A DNA stretch of 64,000 nt, taken from positions 62,001 through 126,000 of IMG/VR virus record IMGVR_UViG_3300042566_001512. The stretch is one strand, 5' to 3'. Each line of letters opens with the position of its first letter. The first letter of the stretch is position 1. Source of the stretch: a virus. Positions 12,241 to 56,804 of this stretch are shown here, piece by piece. The notes below the pieces were generated by a model. It was not told where the DNA came from. It saw only the letters and a program-made list of their open reading frames with translations, and searched no databases. The translations under genes and the position numbers were made by a program.

Positions 12241-14520
12241 ATGTTAAACACCATCATTAAACGCGACGGATCTAGTGAACCTTTCGACTTCGATAAGATA
12301 GAACGTCTAAATAATTTTGCTACTAGCGGTTTAAATGTAGATTTAAATTTGCTTCGAAGCCAAATCAAATTTCTGGTTTACGATGGAATGTCAACAAAGG
12401 ATATTTTTCAAGCGCAGATAAAAGCGGCATCCGGACTTATCTCGGTTCAAAACCCCGATTTTACATTTGTCGCCGCTCGATATTTGTTGGCCGACACTTA
12501 CAAACAAGTAACAGGTACAGCAAAATATCAGCATCTTCGTGAATGTATCACTAAAGGAGTAGACGCAGGAAGATATACGCCTGCTCTTCTTTCTGTTTTT
12601 GATTTAGATAAGCTAAATTCAAGCCTGGATTATAGTCGCGATTTTCTTTTTGACTACTACGGTTTGCAAAACGTGGTGGATAGATACCTGATGAGGGACA
12701 ATAGTAACAAGATCATTGAGCTACCTCAGCATTTCATCATGAGAGTTGCTATGGGGGTTTCTCTTAACGAAAAAGACCCTACTGAATCCGCTATTGAATT
12801 TTATGATATTCTTTCAAACTTTGACTACATGTCAAGCACGCCTACTTTGTTCAACTCCGGAACTATACGAAGCCAGCTCTCTAGCTGTTATGTAAATACG
12901 GTGAATGATCAGATCAGTTCTGATATAGATGAAGGAGAGCATCGTTTCGCTTCCATTTTTGGAACTATTGAGGAGTCTGCTAGGCTATCCAAGTACGCAG
13001 GTGGTATTGGCACCGACTGGACACGCGTTCGCGGACCAGGAAGCCACATACGCTCTACAAATGGAAAAAGTTCTGGTGTCATCCCCTATATTAAGGTTTA
13101 CAACGACACCGCAGTTGGCGTAAATCAGGGCGGTCGTCGTAAAGGTAGTTTTGCCCCATACCTTGAAGTTTGGCATCCCGATTTCTGGGACTTTTGCGAA
13201 ATCAAAAAAGAATTTGGCGATGATCGCCTACGCGCACACGACGTGTTCCCTGCGGCGTGGATATCGGATCTTTTCATGGAGCGCGTAGAAAGCAAAGGGG
13301 TTTGGAGTGAATTTGACCCTCACGACTACCCGGAACTTCATGAGCTTTACGGCGAGTCATTTAAGCGCCGGTATGAAGAACTAGAGGCAGATGGTAAATT
13401 CCTTAAACAGCGCCCAGCCACAGAAGTTTGGAAACGCATCTTGGCCAGTCTATTTGAAACGGGCCACCCGTGGATAACTTTTAAGGACGAATTTAATAGA
13501 CGCAACCCCCAGGACCATGCCGGCGTCATACATTCGTCTAATTTGTGCACAGAAATTGCCCTGAATACGTCCGATACAGAAACGGCCGTGTGTAACCTAG
13601 GGTCTGTTAATTTGGCGAAACACGTAAAAGACGGAAAGATAGACAAAAAGAAGTTAAAGAAGACGATAACGACGGCAATTCGCATGCTAGATAACGTTAT
13701 CGATATTAACTTCTACCCTTCCGATCGTGCTAAAAACTCTAACCTTAAGCATCGACCGATAGGAATGGGTATAATGGGAGAGACAGAAGCTAAGGTAGCG
13801 TGCGGGATTAGTTTTGACTCGCACGAGGGTGTTGCTTTTTCTGATGAAGTAATGGAGTTAATCACGTATTATGGTTTTGTTGCCTCACATGAACTTGTAA
13901 CCGTACACGGTCGTAAACCATACGAATCGTTTAATGGTTCTAAGCTGTCTAAGGGCATATTGCCTATACACACTTCCAGGGATAAAAACACTTCCCTTGG
14001 AATGGATACGTGGAATAGCTTAAGTAAAGCTATATCGGAGGGCGGCATTAGAAACAGCAATTTGTTTGCCATTGCTCCCACCGCTACAATATCGTCTATA
14101 GTGGGCACTACGCCGTGCAACGAACCTATTTTTGAGATTGAAAGAACCGAGAAAAACATAAGTGGTCTTTTCAAGGTAGTTGACCCCTGTGTTAAATATA
14201 TGCGTCCAGATCTGCTTAAAACGGCCATGGACATTGAACCGGTTTGGGTTATTCTATCTGGTGCCAGTCGTCAAAAATGGATAGACCAGGCACAGTCTCT
14301 TAACATTTTTGTTAAGCACGGGACGAGGGGGCGAGAGCTTTCCGAAATATACCTTCTAGCGTGGCGAAAGGGCTTAAAGTCCACATATTACCTGCGCTCC
14401 CAGACCAAGGTCAAAGATACAGCGAAACCCAACAATATTGCCAATTCAGCAATCCCTGGAAACAATCGAGAGGCAGTTTTTTGTTCAATTGACAACCCTA
14501 ATTGCGAGTCCTGTCAATAA
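12241..14520 (+). CDS. nrdA: Ribonucleoside-diphosphate reductase, large (alpha) subunit, class Ia-like
   Basis: It reduces NDPs to dNDPs with the beta subunit encoded next. An N-terminal ATP-cone-like region occupies about residues 1-90. Catalytic features are visible: the first redox Cys in SQLSSCYVN, the thiyl site SNLCTEI, the second redox Cys in TAVCNLGSVNL, and the Tyr pair YYLRS near the C-terminus. The C-terminal CESC can pass electrons from thioredoxin or glutaredoxin. The length of 759 matches the E. coli protein (761). An intergenic hairpin separates it from nrdB. All key residues are present. Confidence 0.95.
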   Translation: MLNTIIKRDGSSEPFDFDKIERLNNFATSGLNVDLNLLRSQIKFLVYDGMSTKDIFQAQIKAASGLISVQNPDFTFVAARYLLADTYKQVTGTAKYQHLRECITKGVDAGRYTPALLSVFDLDKLNSSLDYSRDFLFDYYGLQNVVDRYLMRDNSNKIIELPQHFIMRVAMGVSLNEKDPTESAIEFYDILSNFDYMSSTPTLFNSGTIRSQLSSCYVNTVNDQISSDIDEGEHRFASIFGTIEESARLSKYAGGIGTDWTRVRGPGSHIRSTNGKSSGVIPYIKVYNDTAVGVNQGGRRKGSFAPYLEVWHPDFWDFCEIKKEFGDDRLRAHDVFPAAWISDLFMERVESKGVWSEFDPHDYPELHELYGESFKRRYEELEADGKFLKQRPATEVWKRILASLFETGHPWITFKDEFNRRNPQDHAGVIHSSNLCTEIALNTSDTETAVCNLGSVNLAKHVKDGKIDKKKLKKTITTAIRMLDNVIDINFYPSDRAKNSNLKHRPIGMGIMGETEAKVACGISFDSHEGVAFSDEVMELITYYGFVASHELVTVHGRKPYESFNGSKLSKGILPIHTSRDKNTSLGMDTWNSLSKAISEGGIRNSNLFAIAPTATISSIVGTTPCNEPIFEIERTEKNISGLFKVVDPCVKYMRPDLLKTAMDIEPVWVILSGASRQKWIDQAQSLNIFVKHGTRGRELSEIYLLAWRKGLKSTYYLRSQTKVKDTAKPNNIANSAIPGNNREAVFCSIDNPNCESCQ

Positions 14521-14535
14521 GTATAGTTAAGCATC

Positions 14536-14563
14536 ATAATAGCGGGCACGTGCCCGCTATTAT
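14536..14563. terminator. Palindromic CATA-type hairpin between nrdA and nrdB
   Basis: ATAATAGCGGGCAC plus its complement, loopless, preceded by C (CATAAT). Because nrdB follows within 26 bases, it may act as an attenuating or processing element rather than a full stop. Confidence 0.65.
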
Positions 14564-14588
14564 TCTTTAACCCAAAGAAAAATACAAC

Positions 14589-15593
14589 ATGTCTAACAGT
14601 AGCACAAAAATCACAAACGGTCGTCGTCTTGCATTCGGTGTAAAAGACGAACTAATGAACATGTCTCGCATTCGCTATCCCTGGGCCATTGAAATATACG
14701 ATAGGCAAGAAGCAAATACGTGGTTCCCAAAATCAATACCCCTTGGGGACGATAAAGTAGCTTACCGAAGTGGAGCCCTAAGCGATCAAGAACGAAACGC
14801 GTACGATAAAGCTTTAGCTTTTGTGTCAAATTTAGATGGAATACAATTTAATAATTTAATTCACAACATCGGACAGCATATAACAGCCCCGGAAGTTAGT
14901 TTGGCTATTGCCAGACAGGCCTCCGAAGAAGGAGTGCACGTTCGTAGCTACCAAATGATGATAGAGGCCGTGTCGCTTGATCCCGAGAAGGTGTATATGG
15001 CATTCGAGACCGACGGAATGTTGGCAAAGAAAAACGAATACATCATGAGGCAATCGCGTATCCTTAAAGACGACCCCAGTCCTGCAAACTTTGCAAGAGC
15101 CATTGTGGGCAACATTGTTCTAGAGGGTATTTATTTCTATTCCGCTTTTCTAGTGTTTTATGTAATGGCAAGATACGGAAAAATGCTAGGCAGCGCAGAC
15201 ATGATAAAATATATACATCGAGATGAGGGCGAGACTCACTTGGATTTATTTACCAATATGCACAAAACGTATAGAGAAGAAAACCCAGAAATATACGATG
15301 ATCAGTTTTATAAAGACGCCAAGGATATAATCGTCGGCGGTGTTGAGATGGAAATTGAGTGGGGAAAGTACATCATAGGAAAAGGTATTCCTGGATTAAC
15401 CCCGGATATTGTAGAGAATTTTATGAAGTACCTGGCAAATGAAAGAGCTGTCAGAGTAGGTGTTCCCGAGCCGTACCCCGGGACAAATAACCCGGTCCCT
15501 TGGTTTGATGATTTTAGTAAACCAAACGGCACACGCAGTAACTTTTTTGAAAGCAAACCTACCGACTATGCTGTAGACGGCCTGGTGTGGTGA
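14589..15593 (+). CDS. nrdB: Ribonucleoside-diphosphate reductase, small (beta) subunit
   Basis: It carries the di-iron centre and tyrosyl radical needed by NrdA. Visible features are the Asp in SNLDGIQF, the EExxH plus Tyr pattern in SEEGVHVRSY (radical Tyr), the Glu in LEGIYFYS, and the last ligand helix YIHRDEGETHLDLF. In that helix relatives have DExxH spacing (RDE-x-x-H), while this protein has one extra residue between Glu and His. The length of 334 is close to the family norm. The function is secure from the partner gene and other motifs; the helix variation deserves a check. Confidence 0.92.
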   Translation: MSNSSTKITNGRRLAFGVKDELMNMSRIRYPWAIEIYDRQEANTWFPKSIPLGDDKVAYRSGALSDQERNAYDKALAFVSNLDGIQFNNLIHNIGQHITAPEVSLAIARQASEEGVHVRSYQMMIEAVSLDPEKVYMAFETDGMLAKKNEYIMRQSRILKDDPSPANFARAIVGNIVLEGIYFYSAFLVFYVMARYGKMLGSADMIKYIHRDEGETHLDLFTNMHKTYREENPEIYDDQFYKDAKDIIVGGVEMEIEWGKYIIGKGIPGLTPDIVENFMKYLANERAVRVGVPEPYPGTNNPVPWFDDFSKPNGTRSNFFESKPTDYAVDGLVW

Positions 15594-15601
15594 TATTAAA
15601 T

Positions 15602-15646
15602 TTATAGCTGTATGCTCGTAAACAAAAAAATGCAAGCATAAGCTAT
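15602..15646 (+). promoter_or_regulatory. Leader hairpin before the gene at 15662
   Basis: ATAGCTGTATGCT pairs imperfectly (single-base bulges) with AGCATAAGCTAT around a 19-base A-rich loop. It lies between the nrdB stop and the ribosome binding site at 15652. Confidence 0.45.
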
Positions 15647-15661
15647 CGCCAAAGGGGTAGT

Positions 15662-15952
15662 ATGGCGACTTTAATTACCGATCACGTATGTAAGAGCATT
15701 CTTTATAAAAATTTAAATAGCCCAGAATTTAAAGACTACTACACTCTAGATGATATTAATAAAGAATTAATGAATTACGAAAAAATGGAAATACAACCGT
15801 GCGATAAAAACGGAAAAGTACTTAAAGACGTAAGGTTTCATCTTAATTATAGATCTTTTCTGTTTACATTAAACAGAGCTCTAGAAGACACAAGTGATGC
15901 GTCTAGTTGCCAGAGGATCTATAGGTTTATGGAACTATCTATGGTAAAATAG
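15662..15952 (+). CDS. Unknown small protein (96 aa)
   Basis: A good site, AAAGGGG, lies 5 bases before the ATG. The protein is soluble, helical and rich in Lys, Asp and Leu, with no recognised domain. It follows nrdB by about 70 bases and is ended by a perfect palindromic terminator. Confidence 0.6.
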   Translation: MATLITDHVCKSILYKNLNSPEFKDYYTLDDINKELMNYEKMEIQPCDKNGKVLKDVRFHLNYRSFLFTLNRALEDTSDASSCQRIYRFMELSMVK

Positions 15953-15988
15953 CATATAGCCCCCGGTAAATTTACCGGGGGCTATATG
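15953..15988. terminator. Perfect 36-base CATA/TATG palindrome
   Basis: CATATAGCCCCCGGTAAA followed by its exact complement ending in TATG. It starts at the base after the stop codon. Confidence 0.8.
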
Positions 15989-16017
15989 ACTCTAAAGTCG
16001 ATCCTAAACTTTTTCGG

Positions 16018-16030
16018 TCACATATACTAC
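16018..16030 (+). promoter_or_regulatory. Phage promoter box
   Basis: TCACATATACTACAATTG, 30 bases after the preceding hairpin and about 46 bases before the next gene. Confidence 0.5.
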
Positions 16031-16075
16031 AATTGAATACCTGCAATAGTGTTAGGTACAACCGGAGTCATTCGC

Positions 16076-16330
16076 ATGTCCGTTAATTACGAGCAAACCT
16101 ATCAAGATCTTTTGATCAAAACCATGCAGCTGCAAAAGGATCTGCGCATGTCTCGCGTTAAACGTGTCCTCGTGGCCCTTGCCAAGATGAAGAATAAGTC
16201 ACGATACGTAAAGACGGTTGAGGAGCGCCTGTCAATTGAGTTGCAGTCACACAACCGATGTGATCGCGTACAAGTCTTGTTGGAGCTTCTGGAGTGTGAC
16301 GAAGATGTGATGGCTCATCTTTATAAATGA
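16076..16330 (+). CDS. Unknown small basic protein (84 aa)
   Basis: ATG 16076, with CCGGAG about 9 bases upstream, is preferred over an in-frame GTG at 16049 that lies only about 20 bases after a promoter box. The protein is helical, with a basic first half (KDLRMSRVKRVLVALAK) and an acidic end. It is flanked by its own promoter box and terminator, so it is probably a monocistronic early gene. The function is unknown. Confidence 0.55.
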   Translation: MSVNYEQTYQDLLIKTMQLQKDLRMSRVKRVLVALAKMKNKSRYVKTVEERLSIELQSHNRCDRVQVLLELLECDEDVMAHLYK

Positions 16331-22476: not shown

Positions 22477-22552
22477 GGGACGTTAGCTCAGCGGTTAGAG
22501 CAGAGGACTCATAATCCTTTGGTCAGGTGTTCAAATCACCTACGTCCCACCA
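22477..22552 (+). tRNA. tRNA with CAU anticodon, probably tRNA-Ile2 (AUA-decoding)
   Basis: The cloverleaf has acceptor GGGACGT/ACGTCCC, D-arm GCTC/GAGC, anticodon stem GAGGA/TCCTT with loop CTCATAA, T-arm AGGTG/CACCT, and an encoded CCA. A CAU anticodon may be Met or Ile2. The 8-base D loop AGCGGTTA, the weak closing G-T pair of the anticodon stem and the TTGGTC segment resemble E. coli tRNA-Ile2 more than elongator Met. A TilS-like gene lies 800 bases downstream and AUA is abundant in phage genes, both favouring Ile2. The Met alternative remains open. Confidence 0.9.
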
Positions 22553-22556
22553 TTTT

Positions 22557-22592
22557 CATAATACCCAGGAAATAAATTTCCTGGGTATTATG
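22557..22592. terminator. CATA/TATG-type hairpin after the tRNA
   Basis: CATAATACCCAGGAAAT, loop AA, then its complement ending TATTATG. It starts 5 bases after the tRNA CCA. Confidence 0.8.
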
Positions 22593-22633
22593 CCTATTAC
22601 TATTTTTTTGCCAGATTATAATTATTTTTAGTA

Positions 22634-22642
22634 ACATATTCT
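22634..22642 (+). promoter_or_regulatory. Phage promoter box with leader hairpin
   Basis: AACATATTCTAAATGCGA is followed at 22653-22672 by the hairpin AGAAGC-AAAAGC-GCTTCT. A promoter box followed by a GAAGC/GCTTC stem also occurs at 35085 and 63088. Confidence 0.55.
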
Positions 22643-22704
22643 AAATGCGAACAGAAGCAAAAGCGCTTCTATTTCGACAGTAAAATATCAGAAAGGTTCT
22701 AACC

Positions 22705-22950
22705 GTGTCTCTAGTTTGCTCTGGTCAGAGTTTTACCGTATACGTAGATGTCAAAATTGAAGGCATTTGTACTATCCCCAACATTAACATCTACACAAAG
22801 GACCCAAGTATAGATGGCACCAAAGCGGCTTTCCTGAAGAGCATGGAGCAGTTTGCCAACTCTGAGCACTTTGCAAAAATTGTTTATGAGCTTGAGAATG
22901 GCTTTTGTATACATGTAATTCATACCGCTCACCTGGATATGCCAGGTTAA
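22705..22950 (+). CDS. Unknown small protein (81 aa)
   Basis: GTG start with AAAGG 8 bases upstream. Soluble, with mixed composition and Cys at about 5, 22 and 72. No domain recognised. It is the first gene of a short operon that ends with the TilS-like gene. Confidence 0.55.
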   Translation: MSLVCSGQSFTVYVDVKIEGICTIPNINIYTKDPSIDGTKAAFLKSMEQFANSEHFAKIVYELENGFCIHVIHTAHLDMPG

Positions 22951-22977
22951 ACAATAGTTTCAATAAAAGGAAAAAAC

Positions 22978-23334
22978 GTGGCCATTAAACCGCAAGACGT
23001 CGACAAATGCTTTGTCGACCTACCATGCATCCCCAGTGTCGATGAGTTGGAAAACTACATTGATAACAAGTTGTGCGATCCATTGTTTTTGAAAAAGTGC
23101 TATCAGCACACCCGGCTTAAACAACCTATCGAGCATACTCAAACGGTAAGTTACGAAATCAGACTGCCTGATGCAACCACGCCAGATTCTAAGACACTGA
23201 AGTTACTAGAGCAACGATACGTGGCAGCCGGATGGAACCAGCTTGCACTCGTATACGGATCGACTGAAAAAGACTTTTACGAAGTTAATCTGGTTCTCAT
23301 TCGGATTGTGGAGCCCGGCAAATACCGTATTTAA
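22978..23334 (+). CDS. Unknown small protein (118 aa)
   Basis: GTG start with a strong AAAGGA site. The second half (TLKLLEQRYVAAGWNQLALVYGSTEKDFYEVNLVLI) looks like a compact alpha/beta fold of the kind seen in small phage proteins. It lies 27 bases after the preceding gene and 10 before the TilS-like gene, so it belongs to the same message. Confidence 0.55.
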   Translation: MAIKPQDVDKCFVDLPCIPSVDELENYIDNKLCDPLFLKKCYQHTRLKQPIEHTQTVSYEIRLPDATTPDSKTLKLLEQRYVAAGWNQLALVYGSTEKDFYEVNLVLIRIVEPGKYRI

Positions 23335-23344
23335 TAGTTAAAGT

Positions 23345-23980
23345 ATGTCAAAAATTCATTTCCTGAGCAAACCCAACAAAGAAATCTATCTTGCGTTCTC
23401 CGGTGGCGTAGACTCGGTTGTTCTGCTACATACACTAATTCGTAGAAATTACAGTGTAGCACTACTTACCGTCGACCACGGTAATGAATTTGCTAAACAA
23501 GAAGTAGAGTTTTGTAAGAAGACCGCAAAGGAATTGGGATTAGAGTACAAGATATTTACTATTCCTGATTTTGATAAATCCACGTCACTTGAGGCGTTTT
23601 GGTCGAATCACAGGAACGACATTTTCCAAAAAATGGACAAGATGGTCGTGAGCGGGCATCATCTGAACGACGCCTGTGAATGGTACCTGATGTCCACTTT
23701 TCAAGGTACGCCAAAGCTTCTAGAGCACACCAACAGGAACGTGCACCGACCAATGATTACCAATACAAAGAAAGTCATCATTGAGTATGCTAATAAATAC
23801 AACTTGACGTACCTGACTGACCCCACTAACGCAGATACTACTTACAATCTAAGAAACAAAGTAAGAGCCGAGCTAATGGGAAGTGTAAAGAGTTGTTTTC
23901 CTGGTATTGAAACTACCGTGAAGAGACTCATCGTTAGAAAATATTTAAATAAAATGAAGTCGGTAGAAAATAGCATTTAA
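23345..23980 (+). CDS. tilS: TilS-like tRNA(Ile)-lysidine synthase, catalytic domain only
   Basis: An N-type ATP pyrophosphatase with PP-loop SGGVDS at 19-24. The TilS-specific elements are SGHHLNDACEWYLM (103-116), corresponding to HHxDDQAET in bacterial TilS, and TDPTNADTTYNLRNKVR (158-174), corresponding to the DPSN...RN.(I/L)R segment. TilS converts C34 of tRNA-Ile2(CAU) to lysidine so that it reads AUA. At 211 residues it lacks the C-terminal domains of the E. coli enzyme (432). Its proximity to a CAU tRNA gives a clear candidate substrate. Another PP-loop function is less likely given the specific motifs. Confidence 0.8.
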   Translation: MSKIHFLSKPNKEIYLAFSGGVDSVVLLHTLIRRNYSVALLTVDHGNEFAKQEVEFCKKTAKELGLEYKIFTIPDFDKSTSLEAFWSNHRNDIFQKMDKMVVSGHHLNDACEWYLMSTFQGTPKLLEHTNRNVHRPMITNTKKVIIEYANKYNLTYLTDPTNADTTYNLRNKVRAELMGSVKSCFPGIETTVKRLIVRKYLNKMKSVENSI

Positions 23981-24569: not shown

Positions 24570-24604
24570 GCGGGGGTGGTGAAATTGGTAGACACAACCT
24601 CACT
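24570..24604 (+). pseudogene. 5' half of a disrupted tRNA-Leu-like gene
   Basis: GCGGGGG acceptor strand, TG, then a Leu/Ser-type D arm GTGAAATTGGTAGACAC and part of the anticodon arm (ACCTC ACT). The matching acceptor strand TCCCCGC plus A-CCA is found only at 25618-25628. The 970 bases in between hold an HNH nuclease gene and a complete split tRNA. The anticodon stem strands do not pair, so the gene is probably broken. Confidence 0.55.
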
Positions 24605-24674
24605 ATTTCTTTTTCTATTTGATTTCAATCGCTTATCACTATAATGGTAGTATAAAATAGTGATTGGAGTTAAT

Positions 24675-25226
24675 ATGAAAAATGAATTACAAGAGAAGTG
24701 TAGTGTAAACGATAATGTTGCTTTAGATAAGAAAACTCTTCTGGGGTTATATCCAGAATACACATCTGTTCTTGGTCCCTACTTTAGACCGGACGGAAGA
24801 CAACACGTTATTTTAAATAATGCTAAAGCACCTAAAGGCACTAAAGATAAAACAAAAACTATATCTTACCCTAAGGCACTTAAAGAAGTTGAGTTAAAAG
24901 AAAAATTAAAACCTGATGAAACTGTAGATCATCATGATAGAGATTTTACTAATGACAAATTAAGTAATCTTAAGGTAAAATCTAAATCAATTCACGCGTC
25001 GCAGGATGCGCTTAGAGTTACTGTAAAGCCTATTAATTGTCCAGAATGTTCAAACCTTTTTACGCCTAACGTAAATCAAAGAAACAAACAACATGCCGGT
25101 AAAGGACAAGCTGGTCCTTTTTGTAGTAAAGTGTGTGTCGGTAAATACGGCGCAAGAGTACGAAATGAAGGCGTTATCTTAGAGAGAACGTCATTAGAAA
25201 AAACATATTATCGCATAGATAAGTAA
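24675..25226 (+). CDS. HNH homing-type endonuclease (183 aa)
   Basis: ATG 24675, with GGAG 6 bases upstream, is used rather than an in-frame GTG at 24660. The HNH signature is in TVDHHDRDFTNDKLSNLKV (about residues 83-101), with the His pair, central Asn and distal NLKV. A zinc ribbon follows with CPEC (about 121-124) and FCSKVC (about 149-154). The RPDGRQHVILNN stretch near residue 40 resembles the N-terminal part of phage homing HNH proteins. It lies between a tRNA half and an intron-bearing tRNA gene that starts 9 bases after its stop, consistent with a mobile endonuclease that spreads with, or next to, the intron. Confidence 0.8.
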   Translation: MKNELQEKCSVNDNVALDKKTLLGLYPEYTSVLGPYFRPDGRQHVILNNAKAPKGTKDKTKTISYPKALKEVELKEKLKPDETVDHHDRDFTNDKLSNLKVKSKSIHASQDALRVTVKPINCPECSNLFTPNVNQRNKQHAGKGQAGPFCSKVCVGKYGARVRNEGVILERTSLEKTYYRIDK

Positions 25227-25234
25227 TAAGCTAT

Positions 25235-25552
25235 CCGACTGTGACGGAACTGGTATACGTAGCAGACTTTGACTAATTTGAGTGCCTTTGAGGAAACTCT
25301 TAGAGTAGAACGCTTCAAATTCGGTGGAACTCCTACTTAACTTATGTTAAGGGACAATACCGAGCCAAGCTTTAGTTGTTAATAAACAACTATCGAAGGT
25401 GTAGAGACTAGACGGGGCGAACCTAATACAAAAGTAATGGTTAAGGTATAGTCCAGACTACAACATTTTTAAAATGGCTTAGGTAACTAAGAGTAGTAAG
25501 AAAATCTGCCGAAGGAAACTTCATGTGGGTTCAAATCCCACCAGTCGGACCA
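25235..25552 (+). tRNA. tRNA-Leu(UAA), interrupted by a group I intron
   Basis: Exons are 25235-25269 and 25501-25552. The acceptor CCGACTG pairs exactly with CAGTCGG before A-CCA. The anticodon stem GCAGA/TCTGC closes loop CT-TAA-AA only after splicing. There is a long variable arm CGAAGGAAACTTC and T-arm GTGGG/CCCAC. UAA reads UUA (and UUG). The joined tRNA is 87 nt, normal for class II. The 5' exon ends in U34 and the last intron base is G, as group I splicing requires. Confidence 0.88.
25270..25500 (+). ncRNA. Group I self-splicing intron in tRNA-Leu(UAA)
   Basis: About 231 nt, ending in G. The core shows P7-type strands GTAGAGACTAGACGG (about 25401-25415) and AAGGTATAGTCC (about 25443-25454), the familiar group I pairing around AGACTA / TAGTCC. 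It is inserted between anticodon bases U34 and A35, the same site as the classic cyanobacterial and plastid tRNA-Leu(UAA) intron. It carries no ORF of its own. Confidence 0.85.
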
Positions 25553-25574
25553 ATATATTAAGAAAACAAAACAT

Positions 25575-25628
25575 AAAATCTGTCGGAGAGCAATCTCCAT
25601 ACGGGTTCGATCCCCGTTCCCCGCACCA
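25575..25628 (+). pseudogene. 3' half of the disrupted tRNA-Leu-like gene
   Basis: AAAATCTGTC, variable arm GGAGA-GCAA-TCTCC, T-arm ACGGG-TTCGATC-CCCGT, then TCCCCGC-A-CCA. The acceptor strand pairs with GCGGGGG at 24570 (six Watson-Crick pairs and one G-T). Its anticodon-arm strand resembles the 3' exon of the neighbouring tRNA-Leu(UAA). Confidence 0.55.
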
Positions 25629-25712: not shown

Positions 25713-26147
25713 ATGTCTTTCAATGCAAATGTCCTTGTGCAACTCGCTGGTGCTGAGATCAATGACGAATACAGCAGCAATCTCAACAGCATGCCCGTGG
25801 AACTCAAGCAAGCTCTGCAAGAACAACGTGAAGCTGAACGCAAAGCACTGTACGCTGAAGCCGCAAAACTCATCATGGGTATCTTCAAGCGCACCGAAGA
25901 AAAGATTGCCCAAGAAGTGCAAGAGATCCGTGAGGCTCGTCAGCGTGAAGCTAAGGCCAAGGCGCGGATTGCGGATATTGAGCGTGCCAAGCAGTACGCT
26001 GAAGAAACCAACAACTATTTGCCACTGGCTCTGTTGTGCGGAACCATGGTCATCCCTTCCGGAACTGTGAATCGTGAAAAGTTCAGTGTCCCGGTGGAAT
26101 GGAAACCCAAGTCCGAATCGGTCAAAAAAACGCCAGCTAAGAAGTAA
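25713..26147 (+). CDS. Unknown helical protein (144 aa)
   Basis: ATG 25713 with AAAGGA 8 bases upstream. An in-frame GTG at 25674 is too close to the promoter box. Residues about 35-100 form a highly charged coiled coil (EQREAERKALYAE to ADIERAK). The C-terminus ends in a Lys-rich tail. Codon use is richer in CTG, GAA and AAG than in its neighbours, suggesting strong expression. The function is unknown. Confidence 0.6.
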   Translation: MSFNANVLVQLAGAEINDEYSSNLNSMPVELKQALQEQREAERKALYAEAAKLIMGIFKRTEEKIAQEVQEIREARQREAKAKARIADIERAKQYAEETNNYLPLALLCGTMVIPSGTVNREKFSVPVEWKPKSESVKKTPAKK

Positions 26148-26272
26148 GTAGTAGCTAGGTCCAGTCTCGTGAAGGCCGAGACCGATGACGGTGCATAATC
26201 GTCATCGCGACGCTTTAAAACTACTTTGTCAAGGCACTAGCGCCTTTTGATTTATTCAAAAAGCTAGCTTTC

Positions 26273-26304
26273 ATCAATTACATTCTTTAAGAGGTAATTG
26301 ATGG
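26273..26304. repeat. Hairpin in non-coding region
   Basis: CATCAATTAC / GTAATTGATG with a 12-base loop, between the 25713 gene and the promoter box at 26393. Confidence 0.5.
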
Positions 26305-26392
26305 TGGTGTATCATGGATCTGCCAATCAAACCGCTTTTTATTTAGAACGATTTAGAATCATTTAAATTATTACTTTACTTAAATGGTTCTA

Positions 26393-26400
26393 TATATTAC
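26393..26400 (+). promoter_or_regulatory. Strong phage promoter box TATATTAC driving a non-coding region
   Basis: GTTCTATATATTACAATACG contains the exact TATATTAC core. No coding gene follows for more than 1.3 kb. A stem GTGGTG/CACCAC lies at 26422-26447. Confidence 0.6.
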
Positions 26401-27331
26401 AATACGTTCCAAAATAATCAGTGGTGCGTAGAACATGCAACACCACGTGAGTAACTGGACTCAAACCAAACTCAGTAAAACTTTCTCTGTAATAGTCCTC
26501 AGGATAGCTGCGAGACAACGAATCCGGCTCTCAGGGGTCGGTGGAGTCACTCTTGAGATAGCAGCGATGAAAAGGAGAAAGTAAAAAAGGCTATATGTGA
26601 AACATCGCCGTGGCACGTATAGATAAACTACACAAGCGGTATAGAAATATACAGCAGCCGGATGCTCCGGTATGGTCAATGTGTAGAATTTGAATCGCCC
26701 TTGTGACGAGTAATCAAATTAATGGCCTATAACTCATAAGCTGCGTTGGTGGTGTAGATGGTATCGTACGCGAAGCTTCTATTGAGTTCAATTCCCTTTC
26801 GTGAGAAAGGGTACCTTTAAATACATTTACCCTAGTGTATTTAAAAGTATTTCAAGAACACACGGCAACACCATGTCGTTAGCTTACACAAACCTCTTAT
26901 GAGTTAGGTGAATGCGGTGCGTCGTAGACCTATACCTAGCCCCAAAACGCTTTTAAACGTCACAAGGTAACGACCTAGGCGGTGGACTTTGATTAAAGCG
27001 AGTATATCAGAGTTTACCGGGTATTAAATGGTGCTCGTCATCAGTTGCAATGACTCAAGCTGTTTTAACTAAAAATAGCTTGGAATAGATTGCAGGTGGA
27101 GAGTCTTTCCCAAGAGACTCATAGAAGCCCAGTGATGCCAACTTAAAGTGTTAAGTTCTAACCTCGCAAACTGATCTGTGGTTATTAAATCAAAAAGGCA
27201 AGCTATTGCCTCGATCAGTAAATAGAAGTAAGTAGCGCTGCTTGCCTGATAAAAATCTTTCTCTAGACTTGGTTGTGCTTGTCGAGTGTTGAGGTTTTTA
27301 TTGGAGAGGTAGTTCCTTTAAACTAATAAAT
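26401..27331 (+). ncRNA. Structured non-coding transcript region upstream of tRNA-Arg
   Basis: About 930 bases without a credible ORF on either strand, starting at a strong promoter box and running into tRNA-Arg. It contains several stems: GTGGTG/CACCAC (26422-26447), CCGG-ATGCT-CCGG (near 26660), and CCCTTTC-GTGA-GAAAGGG (about 26801-26818). Around 26745-26795 a degenerate tRNA-like segment appears, ending in GAGTTCAATTCCC. Base composition is more balanced than in typical AT-rich gaps here, as expected for structured RNA. No known RNA family is recognised. Confidence 0.45.
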
Positions 27332-27408
27332 CTGTCTGTAGCTCAACTGGATAGAGCAGCTGCCTTCTAAGCAGCAGGTCGGGGGTTCGAGTCCCTCCAG
27401 ACAGGCCA
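27332..27408 (+). tRNA. tRNA-Arg (UCU anticodon)
   Basis: Acceptor CTGTCTG/CAGACAG, D-arm GCTC/GAGC, anticodon stem GCTGC/GCAGC with loop CTTCTAA, T-arm GGGGG/TCCCT-like with TTCGAGT, discriminator G and encoded CCA. It reads AGA, a codon frequent in the phage structural and replication genes. Intact and 77 nt long. Confidence 0.93.
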
Positions 27409-54608: not shown

Positions 54609-56804
54609 ATGAATTTCCGTGATATGCTGTCTAGCAAGCCTCAAGAGCAGTCTCCACTTAGTATCATTATTAGTGCGCTGCGTAACGACCTAAGCAACGT
54701 CCCAGGCCGGCAAGTCGTCCCCGAGCAAGTCGCCTCTTCGATGATCTCGATGGAGAGCATGAGCTTCTCGGTTCAAAACGAAGCCCAAGCCGCTTTCGAC
54801 ACGCTCAAGACTATCCAGCGCAGTGTTGCCCAAGCAGCCGGCCTGGGTAACCTCAGCGTTTCTCAAGAGCAAGCCTCTAACCTGGCTGCCGTTTACGCCA
54901 CCAACCCTCGCGCATACGCCGGCTCCAAGCTTCGTGTAGGCGCCGATGCAATGCGTTCGATGGCTGACACCTTCACCACTGTGTCCATCAGCAGTGAAGG
55001 TTCGGCTCCCGTCGTTAGCATGGAGGCATACGACAACAAAGCCAACGACAACATCGCCGCTTTCTCGTACGCATACAACATGCAAGCCGCTCGCCAAGAC
55101 GAAGCAGGTGAGCTGTTCTTCCCGACCATCGTCCAAACCCCTGACATGGCCGGCCTTTCGATCGCCACCCGACTATTTAACGTTCAGGACGATGCCAAAC
55201 GAAACATCAATGGCTCGCTGACCAACTTTAACCGTACCAACATTCTAAAGGCAGTTGTTGACGCAACCGTTCTTCGCAACGACCAGACCGAAATCGTTCC
55301 GGTTGTTCGCACTGGCGGCGGTGCCTCTGACACTACCGCATATTTCGTTAACTCTGCCGACGTTGCTCCCTATGCTCGTATAGTTGACAACACCTCGGTT
55401 ACCACCGCTCCTCTGGCTGTCGGTAAGAGCTTCTCGCTTCTGGGCGTTTCCCAGCGCGATGCACTGATCGCTAACGGCGCCCTGGATTACACCGACTCGA
55501 TCGACACCGCTAGACTGAGCGCAGTCTACATCAAGATCGCCGCTGGCGCTGACCCCGTCGCCGTTCCTGCTGCGGTTATTCGCGTGGACGTTTCGGATCT
55601 CGCAACCAGCGATTTCGAGTACACCATTCAGGGTAACACCCGTAAGCTGAACCTGAACTTCTCGACCAAGTCGATCAAGATCTCGTCGGCCACCACTAAC
55701 ACCGCTGGCGCCGTACCTGCACAATTCACCGCCCTGGGCACTAACGTTGCTCGTCTGGGCCTGTCGATGTTTGGCTCGATCGTGCAAGATCTGGGCGATA
55801 CCGAACTTACCGCTGGCGCCATCGCCGTGGCTAAGGTCTCTAACGCCGCTGGCCAGGTCCTGGATCTGACTACTGGCACTGGTGCTACTGTGGCTGGCGT
55901 GTTTGCTGGTGCCACCGTTATCGGCTACGATCTGAAGTCCTACTTCAGCAACACCAACAAGCGTCAGCGCGGCCAGCTTCTGGATACCCAAGAAGTTCGT
56001 CAACTGTACAACATTCCTCTGCTGCCCCCGATTTCTGTTCTGCGTCCCCTGAGCGAGTCGGAGTCCAACGATGCTGCAATGCTGAACGGCCTGGTCACCA
56101 CCACCCGCATTCGTTGCAGTAACTCGGCAGTTACCGCTCTTCTGGCTGCTCGACAGTCCCTGAAGAATTACGTTAACGCCGCTGACAGCTACACCCAAGC
56201 CCCTGATGCTTTCGGCATTGGTCGCCACATTGTCAACGCCGCTTACGAAGAAGACTCGGTCGACGTTGCTGCTCTGATTGACAGCATCAAAACCAGCGAT
56301 CGCGTGGAAGACCTGCGTGCCCTGCTGATCAACAAGATCCGCGACATGGCAGCCACCCTCTACGTCAAGTCTTCGTATAAGGCTGCTTCTGACGCAATGC
56401 ATGACGGTGCCGATGTCAAACCCACCGTGATCATTGTCACCACTACCTACATCGCTACCTACCTGAACCTGGTTGGCGACACCCGTATGCTGGGCGACCT
56501 GTTCGACGTTAAGCTGGCTATCACTCTCGACAGCCGCATGGAAGGCAAGCTGATCTTCAGCTTTGGCCAGGAAGCGGCACTCAATAGCGGTGTTCCTAAC
56601 CCGCTGCACTTCGGCATGATGGGCTATCGCCCTGAACTGACCGTCATGATGCCCGTTACCCGCGGTGGCTCCACCAGCATGGAACTGACTGTTCAACCGT
56701 CGTTCCGTCACGTGGTGAACTGCCCCATCATGGGCTATCTGGAGATCTCTAACATCGACGCAGTCGTCGCATCCAAGGTCGCCATCAATACTAACGCCGT
56801 TTAA
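54609..56804 (+). CDS. Major capsid protein (731 aa)
   Basis: AGAAGGATAAAGTC precedes the ATG. The N-terminal 40-50 residues form a helical leader ending in SSMISMESM (SME at 47-49); a second site, VVSMEAYDN (SME at 137-139), also fits the S/A-x-E prohead protease rule. The remaining Ala/Thr/Val/Gly-rich beta sheets are compatible with the HK97-type capsid fold of large phages, including an Ala- and Asp-rich middle and a Gly/Phe-containing end. Codon use is heavily G/C at third positions with almost no ATA, unlike most neighbours, as for a very highly expressed gene. The capsid call is by size, position, composition and motifs. Confidence 0.8.
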   Translation: MNFRDMLSSKPQEQSPLSIIISALRNDLSNVPGRQVVPEQVASSMISMESMSFSVQNEAQAAFDTLKTIQRSVAQAAGLGNLSVSQEQASNLAAVYATNPRAYAGSKLRVGADAMRSMADTFTTVSISSEGSAPVVSMEAYDNKANDNIAAFSYAYNMQAARQDEAGELFFPTIVQTPDMAGLSIATRLFNVQDDAKRNINGSLTNFNRTNILKAVVDATVLRNDQTEIVPVVRTGGGASDTTAYFVNSADVAPYARIVDNTSVTTAPLAVGKSFSLLGVSQRDALIANGALDYTDSIDTARLSAVYIKIAAGADPVAVPAAVIRVDVSDLATSDFEYTIQGNTRKLNLNFSTKSIKISSATTNTAGAVPAQFTALGTNVARLGLSMFGSIVQDLGDTELTAGAIAVAKVSNAAGQVLDLTTGTGATVAGVFAGATVIGYDLKSYFSNTNKRQRGQLLDTQEVRQLYNIPLLPPISVLRPLSESESNDAAMLNGLVTTTRIRCSNSAVTALLAARQSLKNYVNAADSYTQAPDAFGIGRHIVNAAYEEDSVDVAALIDSIKTSDRVEDLRALLINKIRDMAATLYVKSSYKAASDAMHDGADVKPTVIIVTTTYIATYLNLVGDTRMLGDLFDVKLAITLDSRMEGKLIFSFGQEAALNSGVPNPLHFGMMGYRPELTVMMPVTRGGSTSMELTVQPSFRHVVNCPIMGYLEISNIDAVVASKVAINTNAV

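Follow-up and report, generated by a model that had tools for sequence, protein, structure and literature searches.

Bacterial tRNA(Ile)-lysidine synthetases (TilS) occur as type I, in which the N-terminal domain (NTD) is followed by the two C-terminal domains CTD1 and CTD2, and as type II, which lacks CTD2. The enzymes from E. coli (MesJ/TilS, 1ni5), A. aeolicus (1wy5, 2e21, 2e89) and G. kaustaphilus (3a2k) share the same PP-loop N domain and the same conserved residues with the phage protein described here, and they provide its best profile and fold matches. Bacterial relatives are mostly 267-475 aa long, with one exception of 219 aa, and carry C-terminal sequence, including TilS_C and substrate-binding domains in some of them, whereas the phage proteins are of about 200 aa and comprise the N domain only; moreover, bacterial tilS genes do not avoid the AUA codon, while the phage genes do.

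In phages, tilS was reported as new to these viruses in the Pseudomonas jumbo phages MIJ3 and PA5oct, where a role in the support of host viability was proposed; the accessible part of that report draws no connection between the gene and AUA use or a tRNA-Ile2 of the phage (PMC6892783). The MIJ3/PA5oct enzyme is a 203-aa N-domain protein with 26% identity to the protein described here and belongs to the same phage clade. A second phage TilS, ORF84 of Ralstonia phage RsoM2USA, is 349 aa long and was proposed to mature tRNAs (PMC8504454); it is not among the tblastn matches of our protein. As for the substrate, T4-like phages (PMC1524935) and Latilactobacillus prophages (PMC10688831) are known to carry tRNA-Ile2(CAU), and lysidine has been demonstrated in a vibriophage tRNA(CAU), as stated in a review (PMC13191261). 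These phage tRNAs are often annotated as Met and are probably or demonstrably modified with lysidine for AUA reading, as proposed here; the accessible portions of these papers draw no link to a phage TilS, and they attribute the modification to the host enzyme or are consistent with its action. Both a phage TilS and a phage tRNA-Ile2 were therefore known before. No report of a coupling between the two genes, of an N-domain-only phage clade or of AUA self-avoidance was found among the openly available papers searched.

The stretch of DNA analysed here, hereafter the window, is 64,000 nucleotides long and corresponds to bases 62001-126000 of a virus record of 208,807 bases. The record is that of a giant phage and is assigned to the phiKZ-like group because its DnaB, its major head protein and a subunit of its RNA polymerase match PHROG families of this group, and the polymerase has 51% identity to that of Burkholderia phage FLC9; the record also encodes chimallin, the shell protein of the phage nucleus (PF25677, 3.7e-27; L003:14427-16286, which is 14427-16286 of the record). 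The features of the window are listed in Table 1, with ORFs called mechanically. The CAU tRNA and tilS lie on the same strand, 792 bases apart from the end of the former to the start of the latter, with two small family-less ORFs in between. The tRNA is followed by a terminator-like hairpin and by this gap, so that co-transcription with tilS is not claimed in the window; a stricter terminator scan does not list the hairpin, whose role as a terminator is only suggestive. ARAGORN finds three tRNA genes in the whole record, CAU, Leu(UAA) and Arg(UCU), and this trio reads AUA (if the CAU tRNA is Ile2), UUA and AGA, all of them AU-rich codons.

Table 1. Features of the window around tilS and elsewhere; positions refer to the first base of the window.
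Feature	Position	Strand	Basis
tRNA(CAU), probable tRNA-Ile2, CCA encoded	22477..22552	+	ARAGORN, Rfam; isotype covariance models
10-bp hairpin with a T run some distance after, possible terminator of the tRNA transcript	22563..22586	+	fold -15.2 kcal/mol
small ORF, 81 aa, between tRNA and tilS	22705..22950	+	no family match
small ORF, 118 aa, immediately 5' of tilS	22978..23334	+	no family match
tilS, 211 aa, ATG start, predicted N-domain-only tRNA(Ile)-lysidine synthetase	23345..23980	+	TIGR02432, conserved residues, AlphaFold, PDB folds
tRNA-Leu(UAA), 231-nt intron of group I type in the anticodon loop	25235..25552	+	ARAGORN intron mode; Rfam Intron_gpI
tRNA-Arg(UCU), decodes AGA	27332..27408	+	tRNA calls, ARAGORN + Rfam
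major head protein gene	54609..56804	+	phrog_3231 7.4e-173; 1 AUA/42 Ile codons

The region downstream of tilS has further peculiarities. In the UUA-decoding tRNA-Leu, Rfam Intron_gpI matches 25260-25472 (51.3 bits, E 2e-11), and the intron is apparently inserted between U34 and A35, the insertion site of the group I intron in the tRNA-Leu(UAA) of cyanobacteria and plastids. A second pair of tRNA-like halves at 24570-25628 (GCGGGGGTGGTGAAATTGGTAGACAC... and ...CGGGTTCGATCCCCGTTCCCCGCACCA), with complementary acceptor stems, encloses an ORF resembling HNH endonucleases (24660-25226) together with the entire intron-bearing tRNA-Leu; the arrangement is suggestive of a tRNA-Leu that a mobile insertion has split in two. 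Further on, a match resembling the Twister-sister ribozyme at 26147-26227 (31.7 bits, gathering threshold 34, E 2.6e-4) sits at the start of 26150-27330, a long stretch devoid of convincing ORFs.

The original prediction held that a TilS-like PP-loop gene accompanies the tRNA, and this is borne out by several lines of evidence. The 211-aa protein matches the NCBIfam model TIGR02432 (lysidine_TilS_N) with 99.1 bits, above the curated cut-off of 93.6, and Pfam PF01171 (ATP_bind_3) with 2.2e-27; the best non-TilS family is QueC, with 37.1 bits, 62 bits behind. A PDB search with the single sequence returns E. coli and Aquifex TilS only, while a profile of 34 phage homologues places the three solved TilS first (4e-37 to 4e-28), the next family following at 1e-7; TilS models match 34 of the 34 phage family members scanned. 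Conserved in these members are SGGVDS, H45, R90, H105, D109, E112, D159, N162, R170 and R174; D23, R90, H105, D109 and E112 are invariant, and by alignment to 1wy5 they correspond to A. aeolicus D36, R113, H133, D137 and E140, presumably the PP-loop and catalytic residues of that enzyme. The AlphaFold model has a pLDDT of 95.8, and a fold search with it finds E. coli and Aquifex TilS as the nearest solved folds. TtuA sulfurtransferases come second in this search and the protein consists of the N domain only, two points in favour of a PP-loop enzyme of another activity, such as thiolation as in TtcA/TtuA or the addition of a different amine to C34; this reading is very improbable, as the TilS models are far ahead, the signature D-x-(T/S)-N...R-N-x-(I/V)-R is retained in the phage family, and the single codon depleted in viral tilS genes (see below) is exactly the one that TilS serves. 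QueC, TtcA and TtuA were rejected as identities. By profile, fold and conserved residues, the predicted enzyme thus groups with TilS, not with the other PP-loop ATPases.

The protein had also been guessed to be a minimal TilS, and this proves to apply not only to it but to a whole phage family. Only the catalytic N domain is present in the window protein, which ends at 211 aa: a Pfam scan for the C-terminal TilS domains PF09179 and PF11734 finds neither in it nor in L020, L067 and PA5oct, while among the bacterial relatives L201 has both and L199 has PF11734. As predicted from sequence, the protein fits neither type I nor type II, being devoid of the C-terminal domain(s). When the window protein was used as a single query sequence, no match was obtained in viral contigs, and an alignment query was required; alignment-based scans of IMG/VR gave more than 500 relatives among the matches listed, which is a lower bound. 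Nearly all complete viral tilS ORFs among the fetched matches encode 195-216 aa, and a few reach 240 aa; full-length phage TilS may be under-sampled because the viral loci were found with N-domain-only queries, among the matches listed. In a maximum-likelihood tree of 62 viral and 40 bacterial N domains (quick search, SH-aLRT support, no bootstrap), one branch splits the two groups with a support of 100. The window protein pairs with L020 and L021 (support 99), the record behind L020 being also phiKZ-like, and the proteins of PA5oct and of two 640-kb phages sit on the viral side. The window protein is a member of a widespread, phage-only TilS clade. A recent derivation of tilS from a host was rejected, given that the phage clade stands apart from bacterial TilS in the tree.

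The identity of the CAU tRNA, which had been described as Ile2-like, needed a separate test, because annotation tools read only the anticodon and name such a tRNA 'Met'. Rfam scores it at 71.6 bits (E 1.1e-13) and ARAGORN agrees; its top BLAST matches in E. coli are tRNA-Lys, so that plain similarity cannot assign the isotype. Reference CAU tRNAs, drawn from some 90 bacterial genomes in three phyla, were clustered as Ile2, elongator Met (eMet) and initiator Met, with labels from E. coli ileX and metT, and covariance models were used for Ile2 (R1) and eMet (R2), the score being Ile2 minus eMet bits. Held-out bacterial tRNAs split without overlap: the ten Ile2 range from +10 to +21 bits and the ten eMet from -6 to -20. 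For comparison, the tRNA of the window reaches 81.5 bits with the Ile2 model and 75.3 with the eMet model, i.e., +6.2, below the held-out Ile2 range; among other phages, L020 has +6.9 and Vibrio phage 2.275.O +15.6. A cruder column-by-column score (naive Bayes) is ambiguous, leaning to eMet (-6.8); this classifier was demoted from primary evidence because both sides of stem pairs are counted and arbitrary T-stem pairs sway it.

All six bacterial tRNAs closest to that of the window are Ile2, and the anticodon arm AGAGGACTCATAATCCTT is identical in several Pseudomonadota Ile2 tRNAs (e.g., L261, L270, L271 and L272); the anticodon loop is CUCAUAA, and its C32 occurs in 100% of the bacterial Ile2 set. 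E. coli TilS recognizes C4:G69 and C5:G68 as determinants, while G3:C70 is important for Burkholderia TilS (PMC12514573). The window tRNA has C5:G68 and G3:C70, the latter in place of the C3:G70 that marks 98% of the bacterial eMet set; position 4:69 is A:U, where 99% of the bacterial Ile2 set have C4:G69, and the acceptor stem GGGACG is common to the related phage L020. Initiator Met was rejected, as the 1:72 pairs and the arms differ. The window tRNA is thus probably a tRNA-Ile2. Similar questions of naming arise in other phages: public annotations, e.g., NC_071039.1 (L002) and MG592671.1 (L018), label phage tRNA-Ile2(CAU) genes as tRNA-Met on the strength of the anticodon alone, and the three 'Met' tRNAs of PA5oct differ, with +7.9, +2.9 and -14.9 bits, so that this phage likewise has CAU tRNAs of which the best is Ile2-like. 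An initiator-type CAU tRNA (TGCGGG...), unusual for phages, is present in the TilS-positive viral contigs L052, L057, L100, L103 and L113.

The pairing of tilS with a CAU tRNA extends beyond the window phage. At 117 distinct viral tilS loci, 25 of the 33 tRNAs lying no more than 100 bp from tilS have a CAU anticodon, against 16 of 325 at more than 3 kb, and the enrichment within versus beyond 300 bp is significant (Fisher p 1.9e-16); no other tRNA is nearly as common as CAU directly next to viral tilS. The loci are phylogenetically non-independent, which was countered by a 72% similarity filter, by random-gene draws and by a replication set less than 72% similar to the first: at 36 new loci, the proportions are 10/18 and 7/66 (p 1.5e-4), every CAU tRNA lying on the tilS strand. 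When scored, nearly all tilS-adjacent phage tRNAs favour Ile2, up to +19.6 bits, the exceptions being L051 and L024. Among 31 TilS-positive viral records of at least 100 kb, a tRNA with the CUCAUAA loop is present in 21, and a matching CAU tRNA was not detected in the other 10, which may rely on the host tRNA or be fragmentary; the phage enzyme may therefore often act on a host tRNA. These ten records, together with the ambiguity of the window tRNA in one classifier and its lack of the E. coli-type C4:G69, would fit a true TilS that acts mainly on host tRNA-Ile2 and boosts host lysidine capacity, the phage CAU tRNA being an elongator Met or decorative. For the window phage this is unlikely: the isotype models favour Ile2, also for L020 with the same acceptor stem, and the CAU tRNAs so common beside viral tilS mostly score as Ile2. 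Having both an Ile2-type tRNA and a TilS N domain of a phage-specific clade, the phage probably carries its own kit for AUA decoding.

AUA had been noticed as a frequent Ile codon in many genes of the window, and over the 200 predicted ORFs of the whole record it is indeed the commonest: 1987 AUA, 1487 AUU and 851 AUC, i.e., 46% of Ile and about 33 per 1000 codons. For comparison, E. coli uses AUA at 4.9 and B. cenocepacia at 0.6 per 1000 codons (PMC12514573). A contig scan for TilS-less phiKZ-like contigs with a single DnaB sequence gave no match, and annotated phages were compared instead: in TilS-less phiKZ-like relatives, defined as giving no tblastn match to the window protein, the AUA share of Ile codons is 4-12%. 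Relative to the expectation from third bases at fourfold sites, the AUA log-odds is +0.55 in the window phage and +0.43 in PA5oct, versus -1.61 in FLC9, -1.34 in PhiPA3, -1.15 in FLC6 and -1.10 in Eowyn, all TilS-less. L020, the closest relative with both genes, shows no over-use (-1.06), as do many other TilS-positive loci; thus, tilS permits rather than dictates AUA richness. Two codon regimes coexist within the window phage genome: AUA accounts for 0 of 33 Ile codons in the chimallin gene and for 1 of 42 in the major head gene, and for more than 60% in many other genes. The chimallin and head genes likewise avoid AGA and UUA in favour of CUG and CGY, and such a shortage of AU-rich codons usually marks highly expressed genes. 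AUA is thus avoided for the most abundant proteins even in this phage, and the tRNA/TilS kit does not make it an optimal codon.

A more specific avoidance was found in tilS itself. The window gene has AUA/AUU/AUC counts of 1/8/3, one AUA in 12 Ile codons (binomial p 0.007). Over 100 loci, viral tilS genes contain 144 AUA versus 373.8 expected from the neighbouring genes (ratio 0.39, p ~1e-16), while 11 other A-ending codons are at 0.95-1.07 of expectation, and bacterial tilS is not depleted (1.11). In 20,000 draws of random genes of similar size from the same loci, none was as low as 0.39 (mean 1.01, sd 0.07, minimum 0.68); with a background of long ORFs only, the ratio is still 0.40-0.48. The depletion is present at loci of both low and high AUA use, with a nearby CAU tRNA (0.45) and without it (0.36), and it was replicated at 33 new loci, with 37 AUA versus 151.4 expected (ratio 0.24, p 2e-9) and other codons at 0.90-1.09. 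An avoidance limited to AUA and to viruses, which have to produce the enzyme afresh in every cell that they infect, provides independent support that the products act on AUA decoding; it supports a predicted protein that is a real lysidine synthetase and whose mRNA is read before the phage capacity for AUA exists. We infer that AUA would be limiting when viral tilS is first translated.

The same depletion might come from early timing or high expression rather than from a need for AUA capacity, as the highly expressed chimallin and head genes avoid AUA too; this is rather improbable, since those genes also shun AGA and UUA, while viral tilS does not (UUA 0.99, AGA 1.07), and random genes of similar size from the same loci average 1.01. 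A different role for the same chemistry is counter-defence, in which tRNA and TilS would rebuild an AUA-decoding tRNA after an anticodon nuclease or phage-induced decay has destroyed host Ile2. The specific depletion in tilS, suggesting that AUA reading is limiting during its translation, suits this reading, and there are published examples, according to the abstracts, of phage tRNAs which escape or counteract defences aimed at tRNAs (PMC10264068, PMC11555353); no gene for a defence that cuts tRNA-Ile2 was identified here, however, and ordinary codon supply accounts equally for an AUA-rich genome, so that counter-defence is a possible but somewhat doubtful explanation.

In the mechanism that we propose, which is built on codon supply, phage TilS would adenylate C34 of the CAU tRNA with ATP and attach lysine, forming lysidine, and the host IleRS would then charge the lysidine-bearing tRNA with Ile, so that AUA is read. 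Because the phage enzyme lacks CTD1 and CTD2, selection of the tRNA would occur mainly through the anticodon arm, aided by the fact that the same genome supplies the cognate tRNA. The kit would let most phage genes drift to AUA, while the genes of the nuclear shell and major head protein would retain host-like Ile codons; tilS would be kept almost AUA-free, most simply because it has to be translated at a stage when the phage has not yet made any lysidine and the decoding of AUA is limiting. In its widest form, to which we give about even chances, the large phage-only clade of single-domain TilS, often encoded beside a phage tRNA-Ile2, would be a self-starting switch of codon capacity: AUA decoding would be so scarce during infection that AUA codons have been purged from the tilS message, and much of the remaining genome could turn AUA-rich, being translated well only after the switch.

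The phage family suggests that one catalytic domain may be sufficient for lysidine formation, despite the CTD2 residues that are essential in type I TilS (PMC12514573). These results also indicate that phages can bring, beyond a tRNA alone, an enzyme that alters both the codon and the amino-acid meaning of a tRNA. The AUA-poor tilS genes may be regarded as a sequence fossil of the time at which AUA decoding limits infection, and the old question of why phages carry tRNAs is made directly testable with one codon and one modification.
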